Virus record (IMG/VR): IMGVR_UViG_3300046328_001234
Span: 1 to 37,070 of that record
Source: a virus
Reading direction: 5' to 3' (one strand)
Length of the DNA: 37,070 nucleotides
The stretch's first letter is position 1, and every line of letters begins with the position of its first letter. The position numbers and the translations under genes were made by a program. The notes beneath the pieces were generated by a model. It did no database searches. It worked only from the letters and a program-made list of their open reading frames with translations, and was not told where the DNA came from. Below, in pieces: positions 1 to 37,070 of the stretch.

Positions 1-584
1 GAAATCTGCCTCTGCTCCGAGTCTTTATTACCCGTAAGGGTGTTAAGAGAAAAGGGGTGCTCTAATATTTCTCTCTGTTGATCACTCTGTTGATCAATAT
101 GATGATCACTCTGACAGAGTGGATCAAAATGATCCGATGCTAGTTCATTTTGATCCGATGCTAGTTCATTTTGATCCGATGCTAGTTCATTTTGATCCGA
201 TGCTAGTTCATTTTGATCCGATGCACCAACAGCCTCAGTCAAGGCGAGTAGTTTCTCGTAGTCGATTCGATACCACTTCGTTCGATTGCCTCGATTCTTG
301 TTAAAATCATCTGAGATAAGTAGTCCGTCTTTCTCAAGGGCTAATATCTGCCGCTTCATGGTTGGAAGAGGAATAAAATCTAGGTCTTTATGCCATTTTG
401 CGTAACTGTTAAAAACCCAGTAAAAACCCTTGAAGAAGTGGGTCTTATCTGACTTTCTTGAGTAGATCTTTATCCAGAAATGGATTTGCTGCATAATCAC
501 AGCTTTCGAGATGCTCCCTAGAGCTTTGGCTAGGGTTGGAGAGAAGCTTTTTGGCTCCTCATCAAAAAGATACTTGTTATTCAT
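1..584 (-). CDS. Replication initiator-like protein, N-terminal part (continues across the circular junction)
   Basis: Translated from ATG at 584 the frame is open to position 1, about 194 codons with no stop. The start MNNKYLFDEE, followed by SPTLAKALGS and VIMQQIHFWI, resembles the winged-helix N-terminus of phage and plasmid replication initiators (replisome organisers). Residues 1-115 look like a DNA-binding domain. Residues about 122-150 are a tandem heptapeptide (SDQNELA, four copies plus part), followed by a Gln/Asp/His-rich linker. The ATG overlaps the stop of the upstream RHH gene as ATGA, which implies translational coupling. At position 1 the leftover bases TC join the reverse complement of position 37070 in phase with the frame at 36557-37070, giving 366 codons in all. 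dnaB follows directly. The initiator role is inferred from fold-like N-terminus, repeats and neighbours; no catalytic motif is visible. Confidence 0.8.
   Translation of the reverse strand, partial: MNNKYLFDEEPKSFSPTLAKALGSISKAVIMQQIHFWIKIYSRKSDKTHFFKGFYWVFNSYAKWHKDLDFIPLPTMKRQILALEKDGLLISDDFNKNRGNRTKWYRIDYEKLLALTEAVGASDQNELASDQNELASDQNELASDQNELASDHFDPLCQSDHHIDQQSDQQREILEHPFSLNTLTGNKDSEQRQI
79..114. repeat. Three 12-bp repeats with TGATCA cores (possible origin element)
   Basis: TGATCA palindromes start at 79, 91 and 103, exactly 12 bp apart; units one and three are TGATCACTCTG followed by T or A. They lie inside the initiator gene, next to the 21-bp array. Regular helical spacing of palindromic boxes beside iterons is typical of replication origins or partition sites. 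They encode part of the protein linker on the minus strand. Confidence 0.6.
131..224. repeat. Iteron-like array: 21-bp direct repeat, 4.5 copies, inside the initiator gene
   Basis: Four identical 21-bp units start at 131, 152, 173 and 194, with a 10-bp partial unit at 215-224. Each begins GATCCGATGCTAGTTC and ends in a T-run. 21 bp is two helical turns, and each unit encodes one SDQNELA heptapeptide on the minus strand. Iterons inside the initiator gene that also encode an interdomain linker are the known arrangement of the lambda O gene. The perfect nucleotide identity, including third codon positions, argues for selection or recent expansion at DNA level. Likely the binding site of the encoded initiator (inference). 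Confidence 0.75.
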
Positions 585-826
585 AGCTGCGCTTCCTTGC
601 TGGTGGTTTCATACTTAGCGCTAGTCTCCGCCAATTGCGGTGATCGCCCATCAGAAGCACCGTACTGACCGATTTCTGCTAACCTATCTAGCCCAAGACT
701 GACTAAATACTCAAGGGTATCGCATGGGCGATTACCTCTTTCAACCGCCAATAAATCGATCTCTTTTTTAAGCGTTGGCTTCATCATGAATGTGACGCTT
801 TTCTTCTTTTCAATATTCTCAGACAT
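581..826 (-). CDS. Ribbon-helix-helix (CopG-like) regulator upstream of the initiator gene
   Basis: An 81-residue protein starting MSENIEKKKS. The segment SVTFMMKPTLKKEIDLLA, followed by a second helix ending VSLGLDRLAE, fits a ribbon-helix-helix DNA-binding fold (beta strand, helix, turn, helix). The start at 826 is preferred over the ATG at 850 because GGAG precedes it at good spacing and 850 lies at or before the expected transcript start. The stop overlaps the initiator ATG (ATGA). A small RHH protein co-transcribed ahead of rep is the layout of the pLS1 CopG-RepB copy-control pair, so this is probably an autorepressor of the replication operon (inference). The tail after residue 50 is polar and unrecognised. 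Confidence 0.75.
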   Translation of the reverse strand: MSENIEKKKSVTFMMKPTLKKEIDLLAVERGNRPCDTLEYLVSLGLDRLAEIGQYGASDGRSPQLAETSAKYETTSKEAQL

Positions 827-853
827 AAAATTGCTCCGTTGCTTAACCATCCA

Positions 854-882
854 ATAATTCCATAATTAATGGATTTCGTCAA
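854..882 (-). promoter_or_regulatory. Promoter of the replication operon with a palindromic operator in its spacer
   Basis: On the minus strand -35 TTGACG (882-877) and -10 AATTAT (859-854) are separated by 17 bp. The near-palindrome CCATTAATTATGG (872-860) fills most of the spacer, a typical repressor site. The expected transcript start lies about 20 nt before the RHH start codon at 826. Read as the autoregulated promoter of the RHH-initiator-dnaB operon; not experimentally shown. Confidence 0.6.
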
Positions 883-1015
883 CCCTTGCTGTGGTTTTGC
901 GGTAAAAAGCGATCGCCACAAATACGCCACAAAATCTAGTCAAATAGCCAATTAGCGATCGCATCCGCCTAAAAACATAGGACAATCGAGCAGAAGATAC
1001 ACATAGGCGAAGCAA

Positions 1016-1720
1016 TTGGCTACTAAAAAGCAATCCCAATCCACTGCACTATTTAACCCTCAAAGCTTAATTTCGGTCAAACCTCTAACCGACAACCAAG
1101 CAAAAACACTTGAACACTGGGCGGGAAATTACAACTTGATTCTGAGCGGGCATGCTGGGACTGGCAAGACATTTTTAGCTCTGTGTCTTGCTCTCAAAGC
1201 CCTGTTTCTCAACAAGCATGAGAAGGTGGTTATCTTCAGATCGATTGTAGCGACTCGAAATATCGGTTTCCTGCCAGGTACTCAAGCGGAGAAAGAGGGG
1301 GTGTATGAAGACACCTACAGGCATTTGCTGAGTGAGTTGCTCCCCAATACTCCAAATGCCTATGACGCGATGAAAAAGCAGGGTGCGCTTGAATTTAGGT
1401 CTACAAGCTTTATTCGAGGGAACACCATCAACAATGCGGTGATTGTCGTCGATGAGTTTTCAAACCAGACATACCATGAACTCAGCTCGGTAATTACCCG
1501 TATCGGCAAGAATTGTCGAGTTATTTTTTCTGGCGATTTCTACCAGTCTGACTTGCGTTATGACGACGAAAAAGCAGGGGTGCTTGATTTTTTAGAGGTG
1601 CTATCTCACATGCCTGAAGACTTCAAGCGTATCGATTTTGGTATTGAAGATATCGTGCGTAGCGGAATAGTCAAGAGATTCTTGCTATCAGAATATAACT
1701 TGAGGAAGTCGGCGGCTTAG
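1016..1720 (+). CDS. phoH: PhoH-like ATPase
   Basis: A 234-residue P-loop protein of the PhoH/RNA-helicase-like family. Walker A GHAGTGKT is at residues 45-52, Walker B VIVVDE at 142-147, and a later IFSGD at about 170-174 is typical of PhoH. PhoH-type ATPases are common in phages and phage-like elements; their exact role (an ATPase linked to RNA metabolism or phosphate stress) is unsettled. The start is TTG at 1016, after a purine-rich AGGCGAAG. The gene diverges from the replication operon, and its stop overlaps the stop of the convergent RHH gene by four bases. It lies outside the main plus operon and probably has its own promoter in 883-1015. Confidence 0.9.
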   Translation: MATKKQSQSTALFNPQSLISVKPLTDNQAKTLEHWAGNYNLILSGHAGTGKTFLALCLALKALFLNKHEKVVIFRSIVATRNIGFLPGTQAEKEGVYEDTYRHLLSELLPNTPNAYDAMKKQGALEFRSTSFIRGNTINNAVIVVDEFSNQTYHELSSVITRIGKNCRVIFSGDFYQSDLRYDDEKAGVLDFLEVLSHMPEDFKRIDFGIEDIVRSGIVKRFLLSEYNLRKSAA

Positions 1721-1965: not shown

Positions 1966-2072
1966 TTAATTTATATTTAACAGGGTTTAATTTTGGCATA
2001 ATAGCTCAGAAACCAACCTATCAGAGCTATAGATGAATTGCAAATATAAAGACGACAGAGTTTTGACGGGGG

Positions 2073-2101: not shown

Positions 2102-2147
2102 GATATTTAATACGAGATACAAATAAGCAATCGCGCTTTTTTATTTC

Positions 2148-2875: not shown

Positions 2876-2912
2876 TAGACATGCTAGACACCGCCGCAAT
2901 GCAAGACGATTT

Positions 2913-2948: not shown

Positions 2949-2959
2949 CCGACTCTCCA

Positions 2960-3475: not shown

Positions 3476-3634
3476 AGAGCTATTGAGTTGGCTCGCTCAG
3501 GCAGTGTCGATCTCCCTAAACTCGATCTTGAAATAATCAAACTGGCTCTACGCGATCGCTATAATACTCGGCTTGCCTTACTCCAATCTAACGCCAATGC
3601 AAAGGCGCGTATTTTTAACAAAAACGGGCTATGA
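3476..3634 (+). pseudogene. Same-frame 3' remnant of the membrane protein after an in-frame TGA
   Basis: Directly after TGA 3473-3475 the same frame continues RAIELARSGSVDLPKLDLEI and beyond to KNGL, ending at TGA 3632-3634. That stop overlaps the ATG of the translocase gene as ATGA, the coupling used elsewhere in this operon. The composition is normal coding sequence and includes a HIP1 site. Read as the original C-terminus cut off by a nonsense change (CGA or similar to TGA), or reached by read-through. Confidence 0.65.
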
Positions 3635-5016
3635 AGAGATCGACAATAAATATCATGCTTGGGCTTAGCTGCTTTGCGTGGCTTTCCGCTGCTGGATATT
3701 CCGCTCTAATTCCTAGAGACTATATGTTCACAAGTCCCGAAGAGTGGAAGGCTGCTGACTCCGCTCTTAACGATCGCGGAGTCAATATAAAGCTAGAGCC
3801 CAACTCATACAACAGCCCTATCGCAACCATTCTTTGCTTAGTACCAGCAATCGCCTCTGGTATTTTGCTGGGGGCGAACCTTGAGGATGAAGAGTCAGCA
3901 AAGGCGGATGAGCCCCCAGCAGCCGAGCCACGAGCAAGGCAGTCGGGCGCATCGCCAACGATCGTCAACAGGATTACAAATACCAATATTAATCCTGCGA
4001 TCGCTAATCAGCCTACCCGACAACCCGCTAGAGTCACCAAGCCCACTCGGTTTGAAGAGGAATTCTATGATGACGAACAACCTGTAGCTGTCACCGAATA
4101 TTCCAAAGGAGGAGTATTCACTGGTGATATTATTGGAGAAATCGCCGCCACAGATTTACATGTGCTGATTGCCACAAAAACAGGCGCAGGTAAATCCACT
4201 CTTCTTAAAGCTGTTATTCAAAGAATAAAGAAGGACAGCCCTGCCTCCAAATTCGGTATAGTTGATCCAAAAACAACTGACTGGCTTGGGCTTCAAGGCG
4301 AGGAAGGTGTGGTCACATACCTAGATCAAGATAGCCAAGAAGAGCAGCTCGATGCAGCTTCTGAGCAGATTAGCCACGCATTTCAAATTCTGAAGAACAG
4401 GATTCGTGCCAAGCAAAAGGCGTTACGCGAAGGTGGAAAAACCCCAGTTTTTGCGCCTCAATACTTAATCCTCGATGAATGGTGGGTGTTGCAAGATATG
4501 ATCGCCTTCTCGAAGAGGGAGGCGGAATTCTTTGGAATGCTCAATCAGGTCGTGGCTATGGGTAGGGAGATGAACGTTCGGCTTATCTTGGTCAGCCAAA
4601 CTCACCTGTGCACTCAGATCGGGTTTAGCGATCCAGTCAGGGGTTGCTTCTCCGTCCTCGCTTTGGGGCGTATGGGTGCAAAGAACGATGTTGGTTATAG
4701 ACCAATTGAGGCGGCGCTCGCTGATGCGAAACTGTTTCCAAACAAGCAGCAACGTCTATCGCTTGCTGCTACTCTTGGAGACGCGATCGCGCTGGCGAGA
4801 AAACAAGGCGATCGCCCAGTACTGCTCACCACAATGGGTATACCCAAAATCGCCCTGATGCCAGATCTCAAGCATTTGGATGACTTCAGGTTCGACTCCG
4901 AGGAGTCGGATGATGCTGAAGATCCGATGGGTGATCTTATTGCTGAACTCGATAGGATTGCCGCGATCGAGAGTCAGACAAACTTAGTCCCGTTCCCCAA
5001 AGCGGTTAACTTATGA
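3631..5016 (+). CDS. FtsK/VirD4-like membrane-anchored DNA translocase ATPase
   Basis: 461 residues. Two N-terminal membrane segments (about 7-26 and 63-82) are followed by a polar linker to residue 155. A P-loop ATPase domain then has Walker A TKTGAGKST at 182-190, Walker B YLILDE at 278-283 followed by WW, and a sensor-like LVSQTH near 320-325. This is the architecture of FtsK/HerA and type IV coupling-protein ATPases, which pump DNA or protein at the membrane. The ATPase core is compact, and no C-terminal FtsK gamma domain is visible. It sits between membrane proteins and a TM-M23-lysozyme protein with 4-bp overlaps. Likely the motor of an envelope-spanning transfer or egress complex (inference); a virion packaging role is an alternative. 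Confidence 0.8.
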   Translation: MKRSTINIMLGLSCFAWLSAAGYSALIPRDYMFTSPEEWKAADSALNDRGVNIKLEPNSYNSPIATILCLVPAIASGILLGANLEDEESAKADEPPAAEPRARQSGASPTIVNRITNTNINPAIANQPTRQPARVTKPTRFEEEFYDDEQPVAVTEYSKGGVFTGDIIGEIAATDLHVLIATKTGAGKSTLLKAVIQRIKKDSPASKFGIVDPKTTDWLGLQGEEGVVTYLDQDSQEEQLDAASEQISHAFQILKNRIRAKQKALREGGKTPVFAPQYLILDEWWVLQDMIAFSKREAEFFGMLNQVVAMGREMNVRLILVSQTHLCTQIGFSDPVRGCFSVLALGRMGAKNDVGYRPIEAALADAKLFPNKQQRLSLAATLGDAIALARKQGDRPVLLTTMGIPKIALMPDLKHLDDFRFDSEESDDAEDPMGDLIAELDRIAAIESQTNLVPFPKAVNL

Positions 5017-5742: not shown

Positions 5743-5755
5743 CCAGAATACGTCA

Positions 5756-6244: not shown

Positions 6245-6503
6245 AGTCTTTGCGATCATACTCCTACTGGTATTTATGCTCGTCAAGCCTTTAAACGATA
6301 CCCTGAAATGGTCTTACAGGTTGGTGGGATTACCCACCACCGATGCTTCCAAGCTCGCGACGAGCAAAGAATATAAGCCCAGCGACATCTTAAACCAACC
6401 TCTCAAGGAGGGTGATATCGTTTCTGGCTTTCTCATTCGGCTTATGGCGAGCGCACGAAGCCGAATGAGAAAGCCAGCTCCAAGCATGGAGGGGTGGACA
6501 TAG
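6120..6503 (+). CDS. N-terminal membrane-anchor part of the M23-lysozyme wall hydrolase (frame broken)
   Basis: From ATG 6120 the frame encodes a polar cytoplasmic leader, a membrane segment at residues about 42-56 (KVFAIILLLVFMLV) and an extracytoplasmic linker ending LKEGDIVSGF at 6430, the usual lead-in to an M23 peptidase domain. From there the frame is wrong: it reads through a perfect 20-bp palindrome and stops at TAG 6501-6503. The M23 domain resumes in the frame of 6494-7363. Removing 5 (or 2) bases in the palindrome joins them as one protein of about 412 residues. Confidence 0.65.
   Translation: MLLTNQKQRLPPKPRLEDLPEVDQFNYHERLELTERRWRSAKVFAIILLLVFMLVKPLNDTLKWSYRLVGLPTTDASKLATSKEYKPSDILNQPLKEGDIVSGFLIRLMASARSRMRKPAPSMEGWT
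6424..6477. repeat. Perfect 20-bp palindrome (14-nt loop) inside the M23 peptidase gene
   Basis: Arms 6424-6443 and 6458-6477 are exact reverse complements; the loop is 6444-6457. The right arm plus loop encode the genuine M23 sequence (YGERTKPNEKAS), so the left arm appears to be the altered copy. The palindrome coincides with the frame break. It has no transposon-like flanking repeat, and its length fits template-switch correction of an imperfect hairpin, or a recoding signal. Confidence 0.9.
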
Positions 6504-7363
6504 GAACTCCCGTTGGGACTCCTCTCTATGTAATCGGCAGACCAAACCCCGACAGTGCATTTGGCGGTTTCGCCGATGTGTTTTGCTCTATACCCAGTAG
6601 TGACGACACTAGGGGATATGCTGCTTACGTCAAGACCCCAGATTTTCCAGATATTGAGTTTGTTTACTACCACTTAAAACCTTTGAGTTGTGCCAGTGGC
6701 AGGCTCAACACAGGTTCTAAATTCGCCGAGACTGGCAGTAGCGGAAACGTGACTGGACCTCATTTGCATTTTGAGACAAAACTGAGAGGGGACTGGTCTA
6801 AGCTCGACTTCCGTGAGGAGCGTTTTGAGCCAAAGAGATGGCAAGTCCAGTGGACTCTTGAAGGCAAAGAGCCCAGTAAAGACTCTGCCCCTACCGTTGC
6901 ATCTTCAGAAGTAGAAGCCTTCCTTCTTGCTATTCGCCATGCGGAGGGTACAAACAGCAAAAAAGCGTATACAACCATGTTTACGGGCAAGCAATTCAGT
7001 GATCTCAGTAAGCACCCAGAACAGGTTAACTGTACTATAGGTCCTGACGGCAAAGATCTGTGCTCCGCAGCGGCAGGCGCTTATCAGTACATGCCTAAGA
7101 CGTGGGCTAGGATCTCAAAAAAAATCAACGCCGCAGATTTCTCCCCAGAGAATCAAGAGCGTGGCGCAGTTGAACTCCTCAAAGAAAGAGGTGCTTTCAA
7201 GCTTATTCAGGAAGGCAAGATAGAGACTGCCTTTACCTATGTTTGTGAAGAGTGGGCAAGCGTTTCCTGCTACACACACAAAACCAAAGGTGCATACCCT
7301 AATCAAGCGGTTAAACCTATTAGCGAACTGATGGAAGTCTATAGAAAGGCATTGAAAAAATAA
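6494..7363 (+). CDS. M23 zinc peptidase plus lambda-lysozyme-like (GH104) transglycosylase domain
   Basis: 289 residues from the nominal GTG 6494. The first zinc ligand lies just upstream: H at 6485-6487 in K-H-G-G-V-D, with Y-G-E-R further up, so the GTG is not the true domain start. The M23 domain has YYHLKP (H60) and the GPHLHFE motif (H90, H92). From residue 138 a second domain has AIRHAEGT (catalytic-type Glu 151), FSDLSKHP, AAGAYQYMPKTW and DFSPENQERGAVELLKERGA, the pattern of phage lambda endolysin R. It cleaves peptidoglycan cross-links and glycan strands. Joined to the upstream membrane anchor it would be an envelope-tethered wall-remodelling enzyme, either for lysis or for a transfer channel. 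Confidence 0.88.
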   Translation: MDIGTPVGTPLYVIGRPNPDSAFGGFADVFCSIPSSDDTRGYAAYVKTPDFPDIEFVYYHLKPLSCASGRLNTGSKFAETGSSGNVTGPHLHFETKLRGDWSKLDFREERFEPKRWQVQWTLEGKEPSKDSAPTVASSEVEAFLLAIRHAEGTNSKKAYTTMFTGKQFSDLSKHPEQVNCTIGPDGKDLCSAAAGAYQYMPKTWARISKKINAADFSPENQERGAVELLKERGAFKLIQEGKIETAFTYVCEEWASVSCYTHKTKGAYPNQAVKPISELMEVYRKALKK

Positions 7364-7486: not shown

Positions 7487-7812
7487 GGAAGCTATCTCGG
7501 CAAGAGATTCTCGACATGCGGTGTTCTATCCGCGTAATTGTTGACTGCATAACAAAGTGGGGACACGATCCCGAACAGCACTCACTGCATAGCGCAACTC
7601 TAAGAGTTTACGAAAGCACAATCAGCTTGCTATTCGACACAAACCCCATAGCCTTTGATCCTGCAATGCGTGGTTACAGGGAGATCGAGTGGTCTTTATG
7701 TATCCCTGAAACTTTGGAAGACGGGGATCAGTGTTTGGTCGAAGACGGCGCTTTTCTTAATGATGAACTCGTTTACAGTTACCACCTTTACGTTTTTGAC
7801 TCATGCAACTAA
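7477..7812 (+). CDS. Hypothetical protein, 111 aa
   Basis: Mixed alpha/beta composition with helices at the N-terminus (SRQEILDMRCSIRVIVDCI) and an acidic C-terminal half. No domain recognised. It overlaps both the preceding peptide gene (10 bp) and the following clamp gene (10 bp), so it belongs to the clamp operon. Confidence 0.65.
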   Translation: MQLRKLSRQEILDMRCSIRVIVDCITKWGHDPEQHSLHSATLRVYESTISLLFDTNPIAFDPAMRGYREIEWSLCIPETLEDGDQCLVEDGAFLNDELVYSYHLYVFDSCN

Positions 7813-8978
7813 TAATCTCTCTCAAGAAACTAAAATTGATGGTGGCGGCAGCGGAGAAAGCGATCGCTAAGCCAGCCCCCCTTGAGATTCTAAACAATTT
7901 CAAGCTTGCGGCTAAGAATGACCTATTCAGCATCACAGCCACGGATTTAAAGCTCTGGCTGATCGGCAGGGAAGACTGCAACACCATAAAGGAGGAGGGC
8001 GAGGTCGCACTCAACGCCAAGCGCCTTTCCGACGTGGTTAAGTCCTTGAGGGGTGAAGAAGTTTCAATCAAGGTATCCCAGGGAGCTGCGGTGATTAAGT
8101 GTGGCAAGAGTAAGTTTAGCTTGCCGACAATCAGTGCAAGCGAATACCCATCCATGCCCGAAATATCTCAAGAGAGAGCTTTCGCGATCCCTACGGCGCT
8201 ACTCCATCAGGGCATATCCGCAACCCTCAAAACAGTATCGGATAACATCACTAAGCCTGCACTCCAAGGGGTGCATATTTACGAGTTCGACGAGACCTTG
8301 GAGGGTGAGGATGATCCCACGCATTTCTTGGCGTTTGTGTCGGCTGATGGCAGTCGCGGATCTTACTTTAAGGTCGTTAGTCCGCCACTAGCGTCGCTGG
8401 CGGCTACAATTCCAACTAGAACCCTGCGCGAGGTCGAGTACATTACTCAGGCTGAAACCGAGATCACTATCACTAACGGGCGTATCTGTTTCTTAACACA
8501 CTCGTTGATTGTTGCCTCACCACTGATACAACAGCCCTACCCGCCAGTAAGTAAAACGCTGCTTCAGTTAAGGAAGCAGAAGATGTCTGGGTCAATCAAA
8601 TGTGATCGCAAAGAATTGATTGAGAGCCTAAAGCGAGTTAATACGCTCTCAGATAGCGACATCTATGACCAGCGTGTTGACATGTTGATCGAAGGAGAAG
8701 AACTCAAATTCTTCTCCGAAATTGCTGACGTTGGCAACGTGGAGGAGTCGATGATCTGCAATACTGGTTCTGGCAGTTTTAGATCGCTTTTTAATCCCAA
8801 GTATCTGCTCCTAATTCTTGACACAATCAGTTCCAAACAAGTGAAGTTAGAGGCTTACGAGGGAGTGCAACGCTGCCTATTTGCCTCATCCTGCGATGGC
8901 ACGGATCACGAGACATTCTTGATGGCGATCGCTGAGATAAAAAGATACAAGCCAGAGGCAAAAGATGACGACGATTAA
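7803..8978 (+). CDS. dnaN: DNA polymerase III beta subunit (sliding clamp) homologue
   Basis: 391 residues, close to the usual 365-390 of bacterial beta clamps. The N-terminus (LIISLKKLKLMVAAAEKAI), the first-domain pattern LKLAATDL-like SITATDLKLWL, AKRLSDVVKSL and KFSLPTISASEYPSMPEI match the clamp family, which forms a homodimeric ring of three repeated domains and tethers polymerases. The canonical C-terminal M-P-M-R-L is replaced by a tail ending KRYKPEAKDDDD, so the partner-binding end is altered. No polymerase gene is found in this element, so the clamp probably recruits the host replicase or plays a late-gene role like T4 gp45 (inference). Confidence 0.92.
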   Translation: MQLIISLKKLKLMVAAAEKAIAKPAPLEILNNFKLAAKNDLFSITATDLKLWLIGREDCNTIKEEGEVALNAKRLSDVVKSLRGEEVSIKVSQGAAVIKCGKSKFSLPTISASEYPSMPEISQERAFAIPTALLHQGISATLKTVSDNITKPALQGVHIYEFDETLEGEDDPTHFLAFVSADGSRGSYFKVVSPPLASLAATIPTRTLREVEYITQAETEITITNGRICFLTHSLIVASPLIQQPYPPVSKTLLQLRKQKMSGSIKCDRKELIESLKRVNTLSDSDIYDQRVDMLIEGEELKFFSEIADVGNVEESMICNTGSGSFRSLFNPKYLLLILDTISSKQVKLEAYEGVQRCLFASSCDGTDHETFLMAIAEIKRYKPEAKDDDD

Positions 8979-9162: not shown

Positions 9163-9401
9163 CGACGAAGACGAGTAACGAACAAACGCTTGAGGAGTTA
9201 TCTTCAGTCCGAAAGACTTTGCAAGATGTCACAAAACAGATGATGGATTGCATTGAGGGTAGACCTCGCCTAAGTAGCGAAACAATCAATGCTCTCAGGC
9301 AGTATCACCACCAATTGCAGGTAGTAGAGTCTAATCTGGCTTCTGCTATTAGTAGGCTTGAAGATGCGATCGACCTGTCTATACCGAGGCAATCTATATG
9401 A
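9159..9401 (+). CDS. Small coiled-coil protein
   Basis: 80 residues, almost wholly predicted helical, with heptad-like hydrophobic spacing (LEELSSVRKTLQDVTKQMM and LQVVESNLASAISRLEDAI). No recognised family. ATGA overlaps on both sides tie it tightly to the zinc ribbon and the ParB-like gene. Confidence 0.65.
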   Translation: MTTKTSNEQTLEELSSVRKTLQDVTKQMMDCIEGRPRLSSETINALRQYHHQLQVVESNLASAISRLEDAIDLSIPRQSI

Positions 9402-10042
9402 AGAATGGCATCGATTACTCGTTACCGATCGCTCAACGAATCCACGTCGAGCGCAGTGTCAAGATCGAGACCAGTAAAATCCATCCAAACAATTGGAACG
9501 CCAATTTCCTGACTCCGAAAGCTCAAAAAGCTCTTGGTGGCAGCATGGATCTATTTACTCAGGTTGCCGAAATTCTTGTCCGCCCCCACCCATTCATTGA
9601 AAGTGAATATGAGATTATCGACGGTGAACACAGGTACATTGAGAACCCTGAGCATTTGCTATGTCATGTCATTACGGGGCTAACAGACGAAGAATATCAA
9701 TTACTAACCCACGCATCTCACGGATACGGCGAGCATGAACCTGTCAAGCTGAGTAAGTCGCTCAGAGATATTGAAGCTGCTTTGGGAGATCGCACTTACC
9801 TGCCAATCCCCTTCACAAGCGCGGATATCGACAAAATGCTTGAGGTTGCTAACAAGGATCTACCCCCCGAAGCTACAGATGAATTCACGCGCATGGTCTT
9901 TAGTGTCCCCACGGATGCTGTGGATATTGTGCGAGCAGCCTTGGAAAAGGTGATGCAGGAAGGCAACATCCAAGGTGAGAACTACAACGTCAAGGCTGGT
10001 CGGGCTTTGGAGTATTTATGTGCGGATTATTATGGAGGCTGA
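9398..10042 (+). CDS. ParB/Srx-like nuclease-fold protein
   Basis: 214 residues. Residues about 22-90 have the ParB N-terminal pattern: ETSKIHPNNWNANFLTP, then EILVRPHP and the signature IIDGEHRY (residues 73-80). The region after residue 90 is helical but lacks a clear ParB helix-turn-helix, so it resembles the phage ParB-like DNA-interacting proteins rather than a plasmid partition ParB. Stand-alone members of this fold bind nucleotides (CTP) or act on DNA; the function here is unknown. No ParA ATPase is present in the element. Confidence 0.8.
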   Translation: MKNGIDYSLPIAQRIHVERSVKIETSKIHPNNWNANFLTPKAQKALGGSMDLFTQVAEILVRPHPFIESEYEIIDGEHRYIENPEHLLCHVITGLTDEEYQLLTHASHGYGEHEPVKLSKSLRDIEAALGDRTYLPIPFTSADIDKMLEVANKDLPPEATDEFTRMVFSVPTDAVDIVRAALEKVMQEGNIQGENYNVKAGRALEYLCADYYGG

Positions 10043-12283: not shown

Positions 12284-12871
12284 ATGGCTAAAAAGGGAAG
12301 ACCAAGACTAACACCCTCGATCATTGAGGAGATCAAGGATCGAATCAGATTAACTGGTTTGGTCGAATCCGTGTACGAGCAAGAACCCAAAATAGTCACA
12401 AAAGCTACTTATAGTAAGTGGTATGAGGATCACAGGGAATTATCTACAGAGGTTGATGCCGCGCTAGGGGATTACAGGCGATCGCAGCCTGGTTACTTTA
12501 TACACCTAGCCAGAGCCTGTATAGAGGACTACCTTACCTCTCATAGAACCCCAAGAATCACGACCTCACGAACCAAGAAAACGAGATATGTCCCAAAATA
12601 CGATCAGGCACAAAAGAGGTCGGAACTCGTACTGGATTATGTCGAAGAGAGTGAGACCACTAATGAGGTTATCCTGCGATGCCCTCCAAAGATTATCGAA
12701 ATGATTATGCCTCAAATTCCTCGGACTACGATTGAGGTATTGGCAACACAAATGGCTAATGAAGGCGTGATGCCTCAAGGTAAAGCCCAGACTATTATGG
12801 CGATCGCCGACAAAGCCCAGACCAACATAAGGGAGGTACTCAGCGGTGGGCTTAGCGAAACTGAAGAGTAG
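12284..12871 (+). CDS. terS: Terminase small subunit-like protein
   Basis: 195 residues. The N-terminal GRPRLTPSIIEEIKDRIRLT and a helix-turn-helix ending ATYSKWYEDHRELSTEVDAA match the homeodomain-like N-terminus of phage terminase small subunits, which recognise the packaging site and recruit the large subunit. Middle and C-terminal parts are helical and could form the oligomerisation ring (TTIEVLATQMANEGVMPQGK). It overlaps the large-subunit gene by 26 bp, the normal order. Call rests on the HTH and position. Confidence 0.8.
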   Translation: MAKKGRPRLTPSIIEEIKDRIRLTGLVESVYEQEPKIVTKATYSKWYEDHRELSTEVDAALGDYRRSQPGYFIHLARACIEDYLTSHRTPRITTSRTKKTRYVPKYDQAQKRSELVLDYVEESETTNEVILRCPPKIIEMIMPQIPRTTIEVLATQMANEGVMPQGKAQTIMAIADKAQTNIREVLSGGLSETEE

Positions 12872-16524: not shown

Positions 16525-16687
16525 GGATTAGCCCCTCAATAGTTATTTGTTCAAGTTCTACGCCCCGCCCATATTCTTTGCGATACCAATAGCCGCAGGG
16601 CGGATATTCCTTAATCGCTATACCAAGAATCTTGCAGTGGCGATTAAGGTTGTGCCGACAGCGATCGCATGGGCTAGAAATCGTCAT
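16496..16687 (-). CDS. Small cysteine-rich (zinc-finger-like) protein
   Basis: Start taken at ATG 16687 (MTISSPCDRCRHNLNRHC), inside the SSB stop region; the longer frame from 16738 would be an SSB shadow. 63 residues with C-x-x-C, H-C and P-P-C-G-Y-W, suggesting a single zinc site. No family recognised. It overlaps ssb by 14 bp. Confidence 0.6.
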   Translation of the reverse strand: MTISSPCDRCRHNLNRHCKILGIAIKEYPPCGYWYRKEYGRGVELEQITIEGLIREHKARAIT

Positions 16688-24035: not shown

Positions 24036-24276
24036 TGCTCACCTCTTTGAGGGGGAGTTCCAACCCTTCAAGGCGGTAATTGAAGCCCTCCAAGAAGATG
24101 CTGTCGTTGGAGATACCCCTTTCAAAAAAGTTCACCACAGAAACGGTGCTGTCGGGGCGGCGGATAAAAATTTGAGCTGGTATAAAAGCCTCTAGATTAA
24201 CGATTACGTTGAAGTTCACATCGTAAGGAGCCAAAAGCTTTGTCGCGATCGCTTCAATCTGCTCTTTGTTTAACAT
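24025..24276 (-). CDS. Hypothetical protein, 83 aa
   Basis: Starts MLNKEQIEAIATKLLAPY, like its downstream neighbour. A beta-rich middle (FNVIVNLEAFIPAQIFIRRP) follows. No recognised family. Its start overlaps the thyX stop by 7 bp and its stop overlaps the next gene by 11 bp. Confidence 0.65.
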   Translation of the reverse strand: MLNKEQIEAIATKLLAPYDVNFNVIVNLEAFIPAQIFIRRPDSTVSVVNFFERGISNDSIFLEGFNYRLEGLELPLKEVSNAN

Positions 24277-26090
24277 CCTCTACCCTCCACAAGTTTTCCA
24301 TCTCGATATATCAAAGCCCCAGTCCTCATTTCGTGGCGGACGCTAGCCCACTCATAAAAATTGTCGTTCTTGGTTCTCCAAGGGGCAACTCTCGCAAAGT
24401 GCTCAAGCGGTGTTAAGTGTTTTGGCTTGCTACACCAAAGCTTTTGGAACAATTCGACATCTTTTTTGGGATCTCTGATACCTTCGTGAGTCAGGTAACT
24501 AACTCTGGCACATCGACCGATCCCTACCTGAAGAACGGTTTCAGGGTCGAGATCCGAGTCTTGCTCTGAGTCGATAAAAGGCATGTGCCATTCGTCGATT
24601 CCCCGCTCTTTTGGCTTGCTAGCTGTGTAAGCAAGCTTCATCCTGTTGGCTAGCGCTTGCATCTCAGGCTGGGAATCTGGGTGACACCTCTGCTCAAAGA
24701 AATTCTCATAGTCTGTCCCTGAACAAATAACCGTGATGGAGGAAAATGGCTCAAGCAGTCGATTTGGGATCTGCTTGTGAAGGTTTAGCGCTATAAACCT
24801 TTTTACATGCTTGGTAGCGTCCCTTCGAGCGTCTGCCCAGATCTCTCTGGCTAAATCGATATCATCAATCTCCTTTGCCGCTGACATGCCTGTTTGATTT
24901 TCGCCCCAATACAGTGGGTATACCTCTTGACTTTCGACAAGTTTAATCATTTTCTCAATAGGAATTGCTCTGCTACTGCTGCTGTTCTTGCTATTGTGAA
25001 CGACAACTCCATTGGCAAAGAAATTTGGGAAGTCCCCAGCAATCTCTAAGTCAAATGTTTCCTCAAAGCCGCAAGACCTGATAATTTCAACCTGCTCAAA
25101 TCCAGTCATAAGTGGACATCCTGTTTGCCAGCCTTGAATTTTATGTATTTCTTTGTGCGCCTCTGGGGTAACAGCGATTACATTGTCAATATCGAAGGCG
25201 AGATCGGGTCGCTGGTGTCGGGGAATAACATGATGTATATCAAACGTACTAGATAGATCTTCGCCAGTGATTGCACACTTGCCATTTTGCCTATTACGCA
25301 CAAACTCCTTGTTATTTCTAACCCATTGACAAACCCATTTCCCATCTATTTTGTTAAACGCGCTAGATTCGATCCCAGTACCATACCTGTAGGTCATAAC
25401 CGAGTCAGTCTCAGGCTGTAGTTCTTCCAGCCTGAGCCATCCGCGCCGTGACAAGATCAAATGGTCTTTGCTTGCTTTAACCTCATAGTTTCTGGTTTTG
25501 AGTAAGAAAACTTCTTTTTTCCCAGATCGAAAAACGTTAGAGACGCTAGATAACTGCACCTCATTTGTCACCTCGTTGACCTGCCTGATCGACATCTCCT
25601 TGAGGCGATCGCGGATAGCAAACCTTCTTTTTCCAGTACTACTGTTTCTCCAATTAGTCCATGAATTTGCGTGGGCAAAACACTCTCTACCAACCTTGTA
25701 AGCGCCCTCAATTAGTTTGTCTCGACAAGCTAGATTTAGGTTCAAAGCCTTTGCAAAACCTAGTAAACCAGCAATCTCTTTTGACGAATAATCCCTGTCT
25801 TCTAGATTGGACAAATAAATCCCGTTATGTCTAGAGGTCTCGTGGGGGGTGGAACCGTTTTCCCACTTCTCAGCAAGCTCGGCGATTGTCATTGAGTGGA
25901 CACGTCTTAAACCTTTGGATGTTTTTGCAGGCAGCTCAAAGTCGATACGACTATCTCCAGACAAGCACAACATTCGATGGGTCATGAATTCCGAGTGAAT
26001 CATTCGATGATATGTCAGCACAAAAGTTGTGAGTCGAGTGCCCCAAGGATTGATACTATCGGCGATGATTTCTGCTTTAGGTTGGAACAT
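24270..26090 (-). CDS. thyX: Flavin-dependent thymidylate synthase ThyX with an HNH intein
   Basis: 606-residue precursor, about 281 after splicing. ThyX makes dTMP from dUMP using FAD/NADPH and methylenetetrahydrofolate. The signature is split by the intein: ..EFMTHRML / SKNSSSSRAIP (S367 onward), matching the phage-type form of the R-H-R-x7-S flavin and substrate motif. Downstream features are LNLHKQIPNRLLEPF and SVRHEMRTGAL. The N-terminus (FQPKAEIIADSINPWGTRLT) also fits. It overlaps the broken small gene upstream and a small gene downstream. Together with dcd and nrdJ it makes the element self-sufficient in dTTP supply. Confidence 0.95.
   Translation of the reverse strand: MFQPKAEIIADSINPWGTRLTTFVLTYHRMIHSEFMTHRMLCLSGDSRIDFELPAKTSKGLRRVHSMTIAELAEKWENGSTPHETSRHNGIYLSNLEDRDYSSKEIAGLLGFAKALNLNLACRDKLIEGAYKVGRECFAHANSWTNWRNSSTGKRRFAIRDRLKEMSIRQVNEVTNEVQLSSVSNVFRSGKKEVFLLKTRNYEVKASKDHLILSRRGWLRLEELQPETDSVMTYRYGTGIESSAFNKIDGKWVCQWVRNNKEFVRNRQNGKCAITGEDLSSTFDIHHVIPRHQRPDLAFDIDNVIAVTPEAHKEIHKIQGWQTGCPLMTGFEQVEIIRSCGFEETFDLEIAGDFPNFFANGVVVHNSKNSSSSRAIPIEKMIKLVESQEVYPLYWGENQTGMSAAKEIDDIDLAREIWADARRDATKHVKRFIALNLHKQIPNRLLEPFSSITVICSGTDYENFFEQRCHPDSQPEMQALANRMKLAYTASKPKERGIDEWHMPFIDSEQDSDLDPETVLQVGIGRCARVSYLTHEGIRDPKKDVELFQKLWCSKPKHLTPLEHFARVAPWRTKNDNFYEWASVRHEMRTGALIYRDGKLVEGRGC
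24993..25967 (-). mobile_element. Intein of ThyX with HNH homing endonuclease domain
   Basis: 325 residues, C42-N366; next residue Ser. Block A is CLSGDSRIDFELP, block B VKASKDHLILSRRGW, and block G ends FFANGVVVHN with the canonical His-Asn. The internal nuclease is HNH type: CAITGEDLS, then DIHHVIPRHQRPDLAFDIDN and VTPEAHKEIH. A helical segment (YSSKEIAGLLGFAKALNLN) may add DNA binding. Inserted directly in the ThyX active-site motif. Confidence 0.92.
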
Positions 26091-27028: not shown

Positions 27029-27254
27029 CAGCTTTATCTCCAAATTTAAAGGCTAATCGAGCACTTGTAATAAAGGGGTGTAGATCATCTTCACCCTCCA
27101 CTATCTCGGTCGTGTGCACGTCCCAAGCAGTAATATACCGAAGAACTCCTTGCGGGTCGTAACCAACAAGCGGGGCAGAGAGAACCCTACCACCTAAGTC
27201 TTCGGATTCCTCAATAATGTCGTCCAATCTAATCGCTTTCTTATGGTCTGGCAT
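27021..27254 (-). CDS. Hypothetical acidic protein, 77 aa
   Basis: Start at ATG 27254 (MPDHKKAIRLDDIIEESEDL); the upstream extension overlaps dcd. Beta-rich centre (RVLSAPLVGYDPQGVLRYIT). It overlaps dcd by 14 bp and the next gene by 8 bp. No family recognised. Confidence 0.65.
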   Translation of the reverse strand: MPDHKKAIRLDDIIEESEDLGGRVLSAPLVGYDPQGVLRYITAWDVHTTEIVEGEDDLHPFITSARLAFKFGDKADV

Positions 27255-27873
27255 CTCGCTTAGCCTCCTGTGTATAGCAATCGCCGTTATAGCGACCATG
27301 CTCTGAATAAGGGATCAACGGCTCGGAGTCCATTGTATAGAAAATCATTTGGCAGACCCTCTGACCTTTTTGAACGATGAACGGTCTATTTCGATCAACG
27401 CAGTGCAGTTCAAGTGTGCAGACCGAATCATTCCAGCCTGGTTCGCAATGCCCCGCCTTTAAGTGCTGACACCCAAGCCTTGCTGAGGTTGATCGAAGAT
27501 CTACTGAGGCAACTAACCATAGCGGGAAATTAAATACCTCACCACTCGAAGAAAGGTAAAACTCTCCGTAGTGCAGTGCATATTTCTGACCCCTGCTAAG
27601 GTCTATCTCAAGCCAGCCATCGGGCGTGGATTTTTTGATCGTGTCACCAATGCAAATATCTAGACTTGAACAGCCAACATTTTCGGGGGTGTATGGAGTT
27701 ATTAATGGCTTTTCAGGTAAGGGTACGAAACATTTCCAGAAAAGCATTTTAAGGCGAGTATAGATTCTGCTTGGGTGGGAGAAATCTTCTAACCTAAGCC
27801 GTGGAATCCGCCAAGACGGGTCTCGACATATATGCTTTATCTGCCAATCGGCTAGAATTCCCATTCTCTGCAA
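27241..27873 (-). CDS. dcd: dCTP deaminase
   Basis: 210 residues. Family motifs: GCSSLDICIGDTI (67-79), RSTSARLG (127-134), AGHCEPGW (140-147), the catalytic-type Glu in TLEL (E155), QRVCQMIF (171-178) and GRYNGD near the C-terminus (193-198). The enzyme converts dCTP to dUTP, feeding dUMP to ThyX after dUTP hydrolysis. Some homologues are bifunctional with dUTPase activity, which the sequence alone does not settle. An N-terminal extension of about 50 residues precedes the core. It overlaps the upstream gene by 22 bp. Confidence 0.92.
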   Translation of the reverse strand: MQRMGILADWQIKHICRDPSWRIPRLRLEDFSHPSRIYTRLKMLFWKCFVPLPEKPLITPYTPENVGCSSLDICIGDTIKKSTPDGWLEIDLSRGQKYALHYGEFYLSSSGEVFNFPLWLVASVDLRSTSARLGCQHLKAGHCEPGWNDSVCTLELHCVDRNRPFIVQKGQRVCQMIFYTMDSEPLIPYSEHGRYNGDCYTQEAKRDARP

Positions 27874-28935: not shown

Positions 28936-30378
28936 TTAGTTAAGACTTTCCGCGATCGCGTCCAGAACTTTTACAGTTCGACGCTGCAACCACGAAAGGC
29001 ATGGGACTGCAATACTATTCCCGATCGCCGCATACTTGCGGGTGTCACTGGCAGGCTTGTTTTGATACATAAAATCAAGATGGTCATCAGGGAAACCCAT
29101 CAGCCTCAAGCACTCAGTTGGGGTAAATCGGCGGGTGATATAGGTTGTGCGATTACCCTCTAAGGCGATCGCCGCACCACCACCACGACCATTCATCCAG
29201 CTCTGATCGTGCTTGCCAGATCTGATTGGTGGGCACACTTCGCCAGCATCCCTGCCATTATCAACAGAAGAGAACGCGATCGCCGCAGCATTGTTACTGC
29301 GTATCGCGGGGCAGGTTTCACTAGCACTTCGACGCTGATCCCTCGATGAGAAGGCGATCGCGGGAGCATTACTGCTATGCCCACCTCTGCGGATCGGTGG
29401 GCATACTTCGCCAGCATCGAGGAGGTTGTCGTTTGAGGAAAAAGATATTTCCTTTACCAAGTGATACTTACCCGAAAAACCGTCTTGATTGCCAAGCCAT
29501 TGCTTAGTACCGCAGTTGGCGAGAATGGGACCAGCTACGTCCTGCTCGTTTGCCAATTGCCAGTCGCGATCGCTTGGGTCTAAGCCGAGATGATCAGCGA
29601 TCGCAATAGCCAGAAGTTCTTCTCGACAAAACTGAGGTGGCTCTCCAATGCCAGTTTTAGCAGCCTTGGCAGCCTTACCTTTTGCTTTGCCGACCTTCGC
29701 AACAGCCCGTCTTTCGCCTTCTGGCTCAAATAGTATCGCTGCTGGTATTCCTCCCAGTCCTGAAAGCTCGCCTGCGGGTATTTGAGGGAATAACTTTCCC
29801 AAGACTCTAGTATTGATCGCACAGAGGAAGATGCGATTTCTTCGCTGGGGTACTCCAAAGTACTGAGCATCGACAACTCGGTATGCGACACTACGGTGCT
29901 GTCCAAGAAAAAACCCTGAACGCGACCATTTGCCGTTTTTTCGGCGAGAAGCGATCGGTTCTTCCTCTCCCAAAATTGCCGCGAGCATGCATCCAAAAGC
30001 GTTGTCCTTGGTTGAGAGGACTCCATCGACGTTCTCCCAGAACAGGATTGGACATTGATCTCTAGCTGTAAGTTCATTCCAAGCCTCTACAAATGTTTTT
30101 GTTAATTGTCCGCGTGAATCGTTCAAGGATTTGCGGCTACCTGCAAGAGAAAATGATTGACAGGGGGTTGAACCCATAAAGATGTCGGTGTCTTCGATTT
30201 GCGACCAATCGATCGCAGTCATATCACCAAGATTCGGTATCGAAGGGTACTTGTGCGCTAAGAAGGCATTGCAGAAAGGATCTACGTCAGCGAATGCCAC
30301 TGCATCCCAATGTTCGTCCCACGCTGTTGACTGCGCTTCAATACCAGAACATACGGTCAAGTATTTTAGTCTTCGCAT
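28936..30378 (-). CDS. dcm: DNA cytosine-5 methyltransferase
   Basis: 480 residues from ATG 30378, which overlaps the upstream stop (TAATG). Conserved C5-methyltransferase motifs, in the numbering of the five-residue longer frame: I (TVCSGIEAQSTAWD), II-like DVDPFCNAFLAHKYP, IV with catalytic Cys in GSTPCQSFS (C78), VI FWENVDG, VIII VPQRRNRIF and X AIGNSIAVP. The target-recognition region (318-410) contains three copies of an F-S-S-x-D...C-P-x-I-R...A-I-A unit. It transfers methyl groups to cytosine C5. No partner endonuclease is adjacent, so it is an orphan enzyme, perhaps protecting the element or matching host methylation. Confidence 0.95.
   Translation of the reverse strand: MRRLKYLTVCSGIEAQSTAWDEHWDAVAFADVDPFCNAFLAHKYPSIPNLGDMTAIDWSQIEDTDIFMGSTPCQSFSLAGSRKSLNDSRGQLTKTFVEAWNELTARDQCPILFWENVDGVLSTKDNAFGCMLAAILGEEEPIASRRKNGKWSRSGFFLGQHRSVAYRVVDAQYFGVPQRRNRIFLCAINTRVLGKLFPQIPAGELSGLGGIPAAILFEPEGERRAVAKVGKAKGKAAKAAKTGIGEPPQFCREELLAIAIADHLGLDPSDRDWQLANEQDVAGPILANCGTKQWLGNQDGFSGKYHLVKEISFSSNDNLLDAGEVCPPIRRGGHSSNAPAIAFSSRDQRRSASETCPAIRSNNAAAIAFSSVDNGRDAGEVCPPIRSGKHDQSWMNGRGGGAAIALEGNRTTYITRRFTPTECLRLMGFPDDHLDFMYQNKPASDTRKYAAIGNSIAVPCLSWLQRRTVKVLDAIAESLN
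29164..29442. repeat. Three imperfect repeats (about 78-110 bp) in the methyltransferase recognition region
   Basis: Encoded units start FSSNDNLLDAGEVCPPIR, FSSRDQRRSASETCPAIR and FSSVDNGRDAGEVCPPIR, each ending near A-I-A with a HIP1 or GCGATCGC-like site in the A-I-A codons. One such unit is usual in phage Dcm-like enzymes; here it is triplicated. Confidence 0.8.
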
Positions 30379-31031
30379 TAACGCAACCCCCAAAATAATC
30401 CTATAAACTTACCGCCGAGATGTTCGTTGTAAACGACATTGATTTTTACCGATCGCCTCTCACTCAAGCAAATGAGATCCTCAAAGGTTGTCTCCCATTC
30501 GGCAGCGCGATCGCATAGCTCAACCACATCGTGAGTACTAAAAACACGGTAATCTTCAGTCTTTGACTGGCGTTCCCGCATGTTGTCCAAGATAATTGCT
30601 TGGCGATCGCATGGTTCTAGTAAATCCCACTCACCGACTCCTTGAAGGCAGAGTCCAGTTTGAGGCGCATCCTGTAAATCGTTAGTGCCGCTTCCTTGAG
30701 GACTTGGCGATCGCTGGTCGTCTTCACCGTAAAGGCGATCGAGCAGGTCTCCAGCCCAGAAGCCAAGGAACTCGTCATAGGTCTCAGTTGAACTACCAAT
30801 CTCTTCTTGTGCTCGAATAGGTTGAGCAAGTTTGATACCATCTGCCTCGACTCCTCTATTGGAAGCCTTGCTATTGGCTCCGCAAACTCCGTCTCGAATA
30901 TCCTTGCGTACAACTCTGTGATGTCCATGTGGGATCTCCCAAAATATTACGGATGCCAAAAATTTTGTCGCGTAGTAAGCTGTTTGGATCTTGCTTACTA
31001 GGTATGCGATCGCTTGTTTTAGTTTATTCAT
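30378..31031 (-). CDS. Hypothetical protein, 217 aa
   Basis: Long frame from ATG 31031 to TAA 30380-30378. The N-terminal 30 residues carry a weakly hydrophobic segment (YYATKFLASVIFWEI). The middle is polar, with TYDEFLGFWAGDLLDRLYGE, and the C-terminal part is charged (AEWETTFEDLICLSERRSVK). Codon use (GAT, GGT, CAA, CTT) matches neighbouring genes. A shorter overlapping frame at 30617-30928 also has a ribosome site but less typical codons. No family recognised. Its stop is coupled to the methyltransferase start. Confidence 0.6.
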   Translation of the reverse strand: MNKLKQAIAYLVSKIQTAYYATKFLASVIFWEIPHGHHRVVRKDIRDGVCGANSKASNRGVEADGIKLAQPIRAQEEIGSSTETYDEFLGFWAGDLLDRLYGEDDQRSPSPQGSGTNDLQDAPQTGLCLQGVGEWDLLEPCDRQAIILDNMRERQSKTEDYRVFSTHDVVELCDRAAEWETTFEDLICLSERRSVKINVVYNEHLGGKFIGLFWGLR

Positions 31032-34808: not shown

Positions 34809-34835
34809 GATCTAACTTCTCGCGGGTGGAATTAT

Positions 34836-36560
34836 CTAAACTCGACGCAGTTCATCTACCGCGACCCTCATTTCGGAGTTGTCGGGCAGTATGAGGTGGG
34901 CAACTCCAAGCTTACCTACTTCGGGGATGTCGTGAACGCTCAAGCGGGTCACTCCACACACCTCATTCGGTTTTGGTATCTGCTTCGCCTTGATACGGGT
35001 GTTCATTTCCTGTTTTTCTTCTGGTGTTGAGTAGGAAACATTGAGTACAACTTGGCATCCAACTTCCAAGTCTCCAAAGTAATTCTGCTTGTTGGCAGAT
35101 GGAGTTGCGATCGCCTGCTCTGGCTCAGAATTTACGAGCTTTGGTGCTCCAAGATCGTAAAAAGTGGCAAGAGAGCCGTTATATCCGAGCAAAATCTTCT
35201 TACTTTTCCCAGAACTATTGGCGTTACGGCGCTTTAGCGAGATTATTTCAGCTCGATCCGAAGGAATTTCAAAATCGTCGTATTTCTCTCCTCGATACAA
35301 GCCAAATACGTCATCGGCATTCTCTTCGATCGCCTTTCCACCATAAAGCCCGTCAATAGTTGGGCGTTTATCTGTCCCCTTCAAGGACTCCTTGGTCAGT
35401 TGAGACAAAGACAGTACAGCGATATTGTAATCCTTGGCAATCCCTTTCATTTCCTTGACATAGCGGTTAATGAGGCTGAAATCGTCACCGCCTTTCTCGG
35501 CGATTTTGATGTTGTCTATGACAATAAAGCCTAACTCGCCAGTACCACCATGCTTTCTCGCGTGTTTGCGAGCGAATTCCTTTGCTCGATTGAGTATTTG
35601 AGGAATGGTAGCCTTATTGTCCTCGTCGATCGCCAAGTTGTTGAGCAAATCCCCGACGGCGGACGCTTTGGCAATCCGCTCAAGGTCTTCGTCCCGAAAA
35701 TCTCTGCGACGCATACGCGATAAGGCGACTTTTGCTTCGGAAGCAATCCATCGATCAACAACGTTTCGGGTGGACATCTCCATCGAACCTATGTAGCCCA
35801 CCTTACCTTGGGCTGACAGGTGCTTAGCCATATTCCACGCCGCCCCAAACAGGAGCATGGACTTGCCAATCCCAGAGTCCCCACCAATTACGGTAAATTC
35901 GCCACCTCTAAAGCCCCCTTCGAGCATTTGGTCCCAAGCTGCATAGCCACTAGGAATGATCGGGCTAGAATCCTCGGCTTCTGGGTCAAGAAACTCGGTA
36001 ATGCGATCGCTATAAGCAATTCCAACCTCAAAAACCGTACTGCGAGGCTGAGACGCGGACATCGTCTCGCCAATCAAGTCTTGAGCTTTTGTGCAGGCAT
36101 CGAGGATAGGTGTCTCAAGGTTTTGAGCTGCGGCGATCGCTGCCCTACCCGCCTTGATAAGCCCACGGCGAATATATGCTTGCCGAATCAAATCGGCGGC
36201 GGACTCGTAATGTGCTGGGCTTTGAATGTATGTGCTGCCCATGATATCGGCATAGGTGTTGCTCACCAGATCCGAGATGCTCTCATGCCCGTAAGTGTCT
36301 CTAAATCCAGATTCTTGAAGCGCAGAAGCTATCGTCAACGGGTTGATATCGCGATCGCTTTGCCTTAAAAACATTGCTGCCCTGTAAAACACCCCTAGAA
36401 GGCTCGAAAAGAACATCTCAGGTGTGATTGCATCCACAACCAACCCAAGATAGCTCCCACCCTCAAAAACTCCAGCGATAATAACTTGTTCGGCTTCGAC
36501 GTTGTTCGGCTCAACCAATGAGTTGAGGTTTTGGATTTTTGTAGTTTCTTGCATGATCAT
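34836..36560 (-). CDS. dnaB: Replicative DNA helicase DnaB
   Basis: 574 residues; ATG 36560 overlaps the initiator stop (ATGA). The N-terminal DnaB domain (NNVEAEQVIIAGVFEGGSYL) is followed by a linker and the RecA-like ATPase: GGFRGGEFTVIGGDSGIGKS with Walker A at 226-234, Walker B FIVIDN (D349), the sensor-type LSLSQLTKE near 389-397, and EENADDVFGLYR with an ISLKRRNANSSG arginine-finger region. It has a C-terminal extension of about 100 residues that is not typical of DnaB (VVLNVSYSTPEEKQEMNTRI, then GVTRLSVHDIPEVG). It unwinds the fork as a hexamer, loaded by the initiator at the iterons. Confidence 0.95.
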   Translation of the reverse strand: MIMQETTKIQNLNSLVEPNNVEAEQVIIAGVFEGGSYLGLVVDAITPEMFFSSLLGVFYRAAMFLRQSDRDINPLTIASALQESGFRDTYGHESISDLVSNTYADIMGSTYIQSPAHYESAADLIRQAYIRRGLIKAGRAAIAAAQNLETPILDACTKAQDLIGETMSASQPRSTVFEVGIAYSDRITEFLDPEAEDSSPIIPSGYAAWDQMLEGGFRGGEFTVIGGDSGIGKSMLLFGAAWNMAKHLSAQGKVGYIGSMEMSTRNVVDRWIASEAKVALSRMRRRDFRDEDLERIAKASAVGDLLNNLAIDEDNKATIPQILNRAKEFARKHARKHGGTGELGFIVIDNIKIAEKGGDDFSLINRYVKEMKGIAKDYNIAVLSLSQLTKESLKGTDKRPTIDGLYGGKAIEENADDVFGLYRGEKYDDFEIPSDRAEIISLKRRNANSSGKSKKILLGYNGSLATFYDLGAPKLVNSEPEQAIATPSANKQNYFGDLEVGCQVVLNVSYSTPEEKQEMNTRIKAKQIPKPNEVCGVTRLSVHDIPEVGKLGVAHLILPDNSEMRVAVDELRRV

Positions 36561-37070
36561 GCCGCCTGCGAATTTCTAAGTAGTTTTTTACGCTTGAGAT
36601 TAGCGAGGACTTCACCGACATCCACTCGCTCGGATTCACCCCCAACGGGTTGTTCAAATAGTTGCTCGACTTGGCGCTGTTTAGTTGCGATCGCTTCAGC
36701 GGACTCAAGGGCGATCGCCTGATCGACCAGCTCCTGAAACTTACCCCAAAAGCCGAGGTTCACACAGTCCTTGATGGTATTGAAAATAAAATCTGTTGCC
36801 GCGCCCACGGTGGCTGCGTCACCACGCCTCTTCTTGCGCTGGATACAGACATCGATCAACGACTTGCGCCAGTCGTTTGGGTGTTTGCCATTATGCCACT
36901 CCGCGTAACCAGCATCGACAACGGATTGAGGAATATGGCGATTTTGCGGCTTGGGCTGACTAAACCGCTTTTCAAACTGCATATATTTTTCTGCTTGTTT
37001 TGAAACAGCGACTGAAGGTGTGATCGCCTTGCTGAGATTTTCGAGCGGTAAAGGGGAAGCGGGGGTAGGG
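36557..37070 (-). CDS. Replication initiator-like protein, C-terminal part (joins position 1)
   Basis: The frame from the window's right edge to TGA 36559-36557 is open for 171 codons and lacks a start at its 5' end; the ATG at 36982 is internal. It begins P-T-P-A-S-P-L-P-L-E-N-L, then basic and helical segments (WRKSLIDVCIQRKKRRGDAA, FIFNTIKDCVNLGFWGKFQE). Taken in phase with the frame leaving position 1, it completes a 365-residue protein. The C-terminal domain probably contacts DnaB, whose gene overlaps the stop. The clean phase and lack of stops support circularity. Confidence 0.8.
   Translation of the reverse strand, partial: PTPASPLPLENLSKAITPSVAVSKQAEKYMQFEKRFSQPKPQNRHIPQSVVDAGYAEWHNGKHPNDWRKSLIDVCIQRKKRRGDAATVGAATDFIFNTIKDCVNLGFWGKFQELVDQAIALESAEAIATKQRQVEQLFEQPVGGESERVDVGEVLANLKRKKLLRNSQAA

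Follow-up and report, generated by a model that had tools for sequence, protein, structure and literature searches.

A 37-kb virus record that very probably closes into a ring through its replication-initiator gene

The sequence studied here, referred to below as the window, is the entire IMG/VR virus record IMGVR_UViG_3300046328_001234 (37,070 bp), and its two ends carry, on the minus strand, what appear to be the two parts of one replication-initiator gene (Table 1). The left-edge fragment (584 to 1) contains a start codon but does not terminate; the right-edge fragment (37069 to 36557) terminates, and its earliest in-frame ATG comes only at 36982. When the ends are joined, the reverse complement of 36557–37070 plus 1–584 forms a frame of 1098 nt, that is, 365 codons and a TGA, free of internal stops, in which the junction codon (TC from one end and C from the other) encodes Ser195 and the sequence predicted across the joint reads ...GGGGTAGGG on one side and GAAATCTGCC... 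on the other. The start of the joined gene overlaps the stop of an RHH-like gene in an ATGA at 584–581, and its stop overlaps the start of dnaB in another at 36560–36557. The initial annotation of this DNA had described just such an arrangement, with a minus frame crossing 37070/1 in phase, edges that each supply what the other lacks and ATGA overlaps on both sides, and all of these features hold; only the RHH identity of the upstream neighbour, a possible CopG-like autorepressor, stays apart, as profile searches gave it no family.

Profile searches match residues 2–149 of the left-edge half to phrog_6493, a DnaD-like helicase loader family (E=1e-30), as well as to O-like initiator families, including phrog 428, 678 and others, and this half is ~40% identical to Geobacillus and Staphylococcus phage initiators and to lactobacillar proteins. 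Many phages encode such a domain immediately before a DnaB-type helicase or the loader of that helicase: the order is initiator, G39P loader and DnaB in a Geobacillus phage, initiator and then DnaB or its loader in Staphylococcus phages, and initiator directly followed by DnaB in Bacillus phage vB_BhaS-171. In the window, too, the DnaB gene comes next after the joined initiator. The right-edge half is matched in the sole related lineage that we found, represented by IMGVR_UViG_3300031951_000374 (43,022 bp; hereafter G001) and three near-identical partial contigs of its population. Here, 114 of 174 aligned columns (66%) are identical to the C terminus of the G001 initiator, a contiguous protein of 463 residues whose N terminus matches phrog 6493, 428, 678, 270 and 9773 and whose gene directly precedes that of a DnaB 84% identical to the DnaB of the window. 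Each window edge thus supplies the part missing from the other, since one contiguous G001 protein, followed by dnaB, holds the counterparts of both; this homologue comparison had been suggested as a check on the joint, and it bears the joint out. The initiator thus belongs among the wHTH proteins of phage O/DnaD-like type. The G001 initiator gene (L002, 701–2092) carries an HNH endonuclease domain, inserted at residues ~136–250 between the wHTH and C-terminal domains.

The initiator gene of the window also contains 21-bp iterons in frame with it, whose core, TCAAAATGA, recurs in homologous genes. Across 21 homologous initiator genes we counted 24 exact copies of the core versus 0.5 expected from codon shuffles, with at least two copies in nine genes, a single copy in one and none in 11, G001 included; as these genes are kin, the 24 cores are not 24 independent events. 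Every copy lies at codons 108–154, directly past the wHTH domain, and the arms outside the core are mostly complementary and covary (GGA/TCC, GTA/TAC, TGC/GCA and TGA/TCA), with complementarity at the first three positions in 17, 21 and 15 of the 24 copies, respectively. This covariation favours a DNA-binding site over a constraint on the peptide. The 60-bp windows at 41–120 reach 65% AT, a value that other nearby windows equal or exceed. A 32-mer of the iteron found no match in viral_contigs, where near records may be missing, and Rfam and tRNA searches gave no matches.

Origins within the initiator gene have been described for lambda O and Stx phages (PMC7466680), for SPP1 gene 38, which encodes gp38 (oriL) (PMC6316719), and for TP901-1 ORF13 and Tuc2009 Rep (PMC8965321). 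The window probably follows the pattern of lambda O and SPP1 gene 38, with its origin inside the initiator gene: in those systems the binding repeats lie in the initiator's own coding sequence with helicase or loader genes near, and the window likewise has intragenic iterons. It differs from them in its cyanobacterial setting, in its 21-bp iterons with the TCAAAATGA core, in an initiator C-terminal domain confined to its lineage and in having dnaB directly next, with no separate loader gene. Bacillota phage DnaD-like initiators of phrog_6493 (those of vB_BhaS-171, Geobacillus phage NIIg9.7 and Staphylococcus phage L-m44) have a wHTH domain ~35–44% identical to that of the window and a similar gene order of initiator, in some cases a loader, and dnaB; several of their genes hold the same palindromic iteron core in the same place, although mostly at a spacing of 45 bp rather than 21 bp, and their C-terminal part differs from that of the window. 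The initiator genes that carry this palindromic iteron with its invariant core, nine besides that of the window, come from unrelated hosts. Common to a cyanobacterial element and to phages or plasmids of Bacillota, Escherichia coli and Rickettsiales, the iteron offers a sequence handle for finding origins in a widespread initiator family.

Beyond the initiator, G001 is collinear in gene order and strand with window 2384–37070 (~34 kb), sharing the same operons, the large terminase subunit (TerL) and the FtsK-like ATPase. The two differ in the interval that separates the initiator from window position 2384, which spans ~2 kb in the window and ~13.6 kb in G001, where this variable region includes ParA and CopG-like genes; G001 further differs by the HNH domain in its initiator, by having no TCAAAATGA iterons and by an IS605-type element at its contig ends. 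At its left end a TnpB-like frame (MLVLEAKLKGKT...) begins and runs off the contig, its right end holds a TnpB C terminus (VGHT...), and in DNA searches both ends match ends of cyanobacterial insertion sequences (IS). On the cyanobacterial plasmid CP150887, the match to the right end (167864–167918) and that to the left end (169148–169190) lie ~1.3 kb apart and flank one TnpB-like transposase, in the order required to close G001; the 41-residue fused TnpB remnant had no match among plasmids by tblastn. The G001 termini are best read as opposite ends of one split IS200/IS605-type element: two IS copies on a linear molecule would look alike, and one copy is simpler. With one split transposon at its ends, G001 closes too, at the place corresponding to the joint of the window, so that two independent records appear to close at corresponding places. 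Searches for further relatives via ParB, DnaB and the protein encoded before TerL returned only the G001 population, genome_contigs searched with the FtsK-like ATPase and DnaB gave no relative, and INPHARED held no near-identical phage for window 1–20000.

Taken with the homology of its two edges, the closure of G001 makes it very probable that the 37-kb record is a ring. Several points weigh against this reading or its details. Most assemblers leave a terminal repeat on circular contigs, and none was found between the end kilobases (longest common word, 10 bp), so circularity is not demonstrated by end overlap. The exact 23-mer spanning the joint had no match in viral_contigs, from which near records may be missing, and we do not count this zero as evidence against closure. 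The C-terminal domain of the initiator matched no family in profile searches, and its AlphaFold model is poor (mean predicted local distance difference test score (pLDDT) below 50). The linker around the junction codon is unconserved, which leaves the exact adjacency of the ends unproven: a small in-frame number of bases may have been lost, and the length of 365 residues is likely rather than proven. On a broader version of this concern, the ends are only approximately adjacent and bases or a whole module are missing between 37070 and 1, an idea to which the absent terminal overlap, the unconserved linker and the position of the variable region, so much longer in G001, all lend something. A large module, however, would have to split the initiator between codons 194 and 196, whereas the G001 initiator is contiguous, and the frame is maintained without a stop; we regard such a gap as quite unlikely. 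The record might also be a linear fragment whose ends fall in two unrelated genes that fuse in frame by chance. Random joints between two points of the window gave a spanning open reading frame (ORF) of at least 365 codons in 202 of 4,000 cases (~5%), probably a reflection of the long ribonucleotide reductase (RNR) frame, and the in-frame fusion is by itself modest evidence. The case for closure gains its strength from the way in which the halves complement each other within one protein family, the left half being an N-terminal initiator domain that lacks a C terminus and the right half an initiator C terminus that lacks an N terminus, with dnaB, the neighbour of the right half, being the gene that follows this N-terminal domain in other phages. 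Chance fusion is strongly disfavoured on these grounds and has very little probability left. GC skew, with a minimum near the junction and a maximum near 14–15 kb, is compatible with an origin at the junction but tracks gene strand, and we do not count it as evidence.

Given a closed ring, no gene of the element lies outside the record, and the lack of virion genes described next is then biology rather than a broken assembly. The initial annotation had read the window as very probably a complete circle; homology and the closure of G001 support the circle, but a complete phage, with no recognisable virion structural genes, is not supported. Profile searches recognised no portal, capsid, tail or tape-measure gene in the window or in G001; for the variable region of G001, this negative comes from ORF sizes and, in part, from profiles. 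Both rings have an intact TerL, and the next gene is convergent, whereas in four distant TerL relatives the same searches place a portal gene in the adjoining position or close to it and give clear portal, protease and tape-measure matches. Very divergent proteins could escape profile searches, which counts against reading the absence literally, and the record might be a complete phage with a linear or circularly permuted genome (headful packaging) that only maps as a circle, its virion proteins being too divergent to recognise. Permuted phages do assemble as circles, TerL is intact and 87% of PHROGs have no function, all of which would suit such a phage; yet every large gene is identified as non-structural (RNR, ThyX, DnaB, TerL, methyltransferase, FtsK-like ATPase and clamp), no gene is as long as one for a tape measure, the longest unknown that is conserved being a Cys-rich protein of 377 aa (292 aa in G001), and the method that finds nothing here succeeds in the distant TerL relatives. 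We therefore hold a permuted complete phage to be unlikely. A tailless virus with the FtsK/HerA-like protein as packaging ATPase was also considered and set aside, as TerL is present and the small proteins flanking the ATPase look membrane-type, not capsid-like.

An intact TerL without recognisable portal, capsid or tail genes in both rings makes a phage-like or phage-derived plasmid, or a helper-dependent element, the more likely identity. A ParB-like protein is encoded in both and ParA in G001 only, the latter favouring plasmid-style maintenance, and no integrase was seen in the window. The host is probably a cyanobacterium, to which the excess of the HIP1 octamer points (86 copies in the window versus 0.4 expected). 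Phage-plasmids and satellite phage-plasmids from glacial viromes are circular and carry partition genes and a terminase, the satellites being free of structural genes, smaller than 16 kb and equipped with a P4-like prim-pol and an integrase (PMC4490671). The window combines a probably circular map, a ParB-like protein and TerL with no recognised structural genes, and differs from those satellites in its 37 kb and in its own DnaB, clamp, RNR and ThyX. Streptomyces satellites Mulch and Flayer, by comparison, encode particles and are without key replication genes (PMC10690885), a division of labour that the window element would mirror in reverse. More speculatively, window and G001 may belong to a family of 37–43-kb circular cyanobacterial elements that encode a nearly full set of replication proteins as well as a terminase, but no virion, each being either a satellite that replicates autonomously and borrows nothing but the particle or one of two circles between which a phage genome is divided. 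With a closed ring, one could put to the test the idea of a large element that has a packaging motor of its own and no capsid.

Starting from the joined frame, the homology and synteny of both halves, the iterons, the collinearity with G001 and the closure of G001 through one transposon, we consider it likely that the record represents a circular map opened arbitrarily within the initiator gene, in an operon ordered RHH-like gene, initiator and dnaB. The initiator would bind the iterons in its own coding sequence (window 121–224), open the DNA adjoining them and recruit the DnaB encoded by its neighbour, with the lineage-specific C-terminal domain acting as loader or contact. The replicon would make its own clamp, single-strand DNA-binding protein (SSB) and nucleotides. 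Most likely, a cyanobacterium maintains the element as a plasmid of phage origin, and any packaging would make use of the particles of a helper phage.

Table 1. Features of the window (37,070 bp) with coordinates and strand
Feature	Coordinates	Strand	Basis or remark
Initiator, 5′ part (codons 1–194 and two bases of codon 195)	1..584	-	N-terminal winged-helix domain and iteron-coding stretch
12-bp TGATCA-containing repeat, 3.4 copies	73..113	.	Lies in an AT-richer 60-bp stretch, one of several close to the junction
Palindromic site GGATCAAAATGATCC	121..135	.	Adjoins iterons; fifth copy of core
21-bp iteron, 4.5 exact copies; proposed origin	130..224	.	Minus strand GCATCGGATCAAAATGAACTA, coding ASDQNEL
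RHH-like protein, 89 aa	581..850	-	First gene of initiator–dnaB operon; judged by eye
PhoH-like ATPase	1016..1720	+	Profile match; divergent from replication operon
FtsK/HerA-like ATPase	3631..5016	+	Hydrophobic N terminus; weak relatives mainly on Nostoc-group plasmids
Peptidoglycan hydrolase	6494..7363	+	M23-like stretch and endolysin-family match
DNA polymerase III beta-type sliding clamp	7803..8978	+	
ParB-like protein	9398..10042	+	86% identical in G001
Candidate small terminase subunit, conserved, 195 aa	12284..12871	+	Position only, just before TerL
TerL	12846..14459	+	Motifs kept: HGVGKT, IIFDEAN, GNP, D347/D402/D516
SSB	16674..17036	-	
RusA-like Holliday junction resolvase	17930..18412	-	
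RNR	18900..23384	-	Two intein-like insertions
Thymidylate synthase ThyX	24270..26090	-	HNH-bearing intein (~residues 50–353)
dCTP deaminase	27241..27873	-	
C5-cytosine DNA methyltransferase	28936..30393	-	
DnaB-type replicative helicase	34836..36560	-	DnaB_C E=1e-36; identity to G001 and overlap as in text
Initiator, 3′ part (last base of codon 195, codons 196–365 and stop)	36557..37070	-	Lineage-specific C-terminal domain; joined frame, G001 match

Among the remaining genes, the FtsK/HerA-like ATPase is flanked, within window 2960–6503, by conserved small membrane-type proteins and the peptidoglycan hydrolase. It had no relatives in the phage collection, and because its weak relatives lie mainly on Nostoc-group plasmids, a function of this region in DNA transfer or in the envelope is possible. 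For the protein encoded before TerL, the AlphaFold model was uninformative (mean pLDDT below 50).

The variable region of G001 (L004, 6485–7361) holds ParA and a CopG/RHH-like gene, both absent from the window. A polynucleotide kinase 3′-phosphatase-like HAD protein at window 32142–32729 (PNK3P E=8e-13) has no G001 counterpart, and a DUF3850/ASCH-like protein is encoded at 10312–10620. The intein-like insertions of RNR cover residues ~437–766 and 1043–1357 and carry LAGLIDADG; RNR is uninterrupted in one contig of the G001 population, and G001 itself has two RNR frames.

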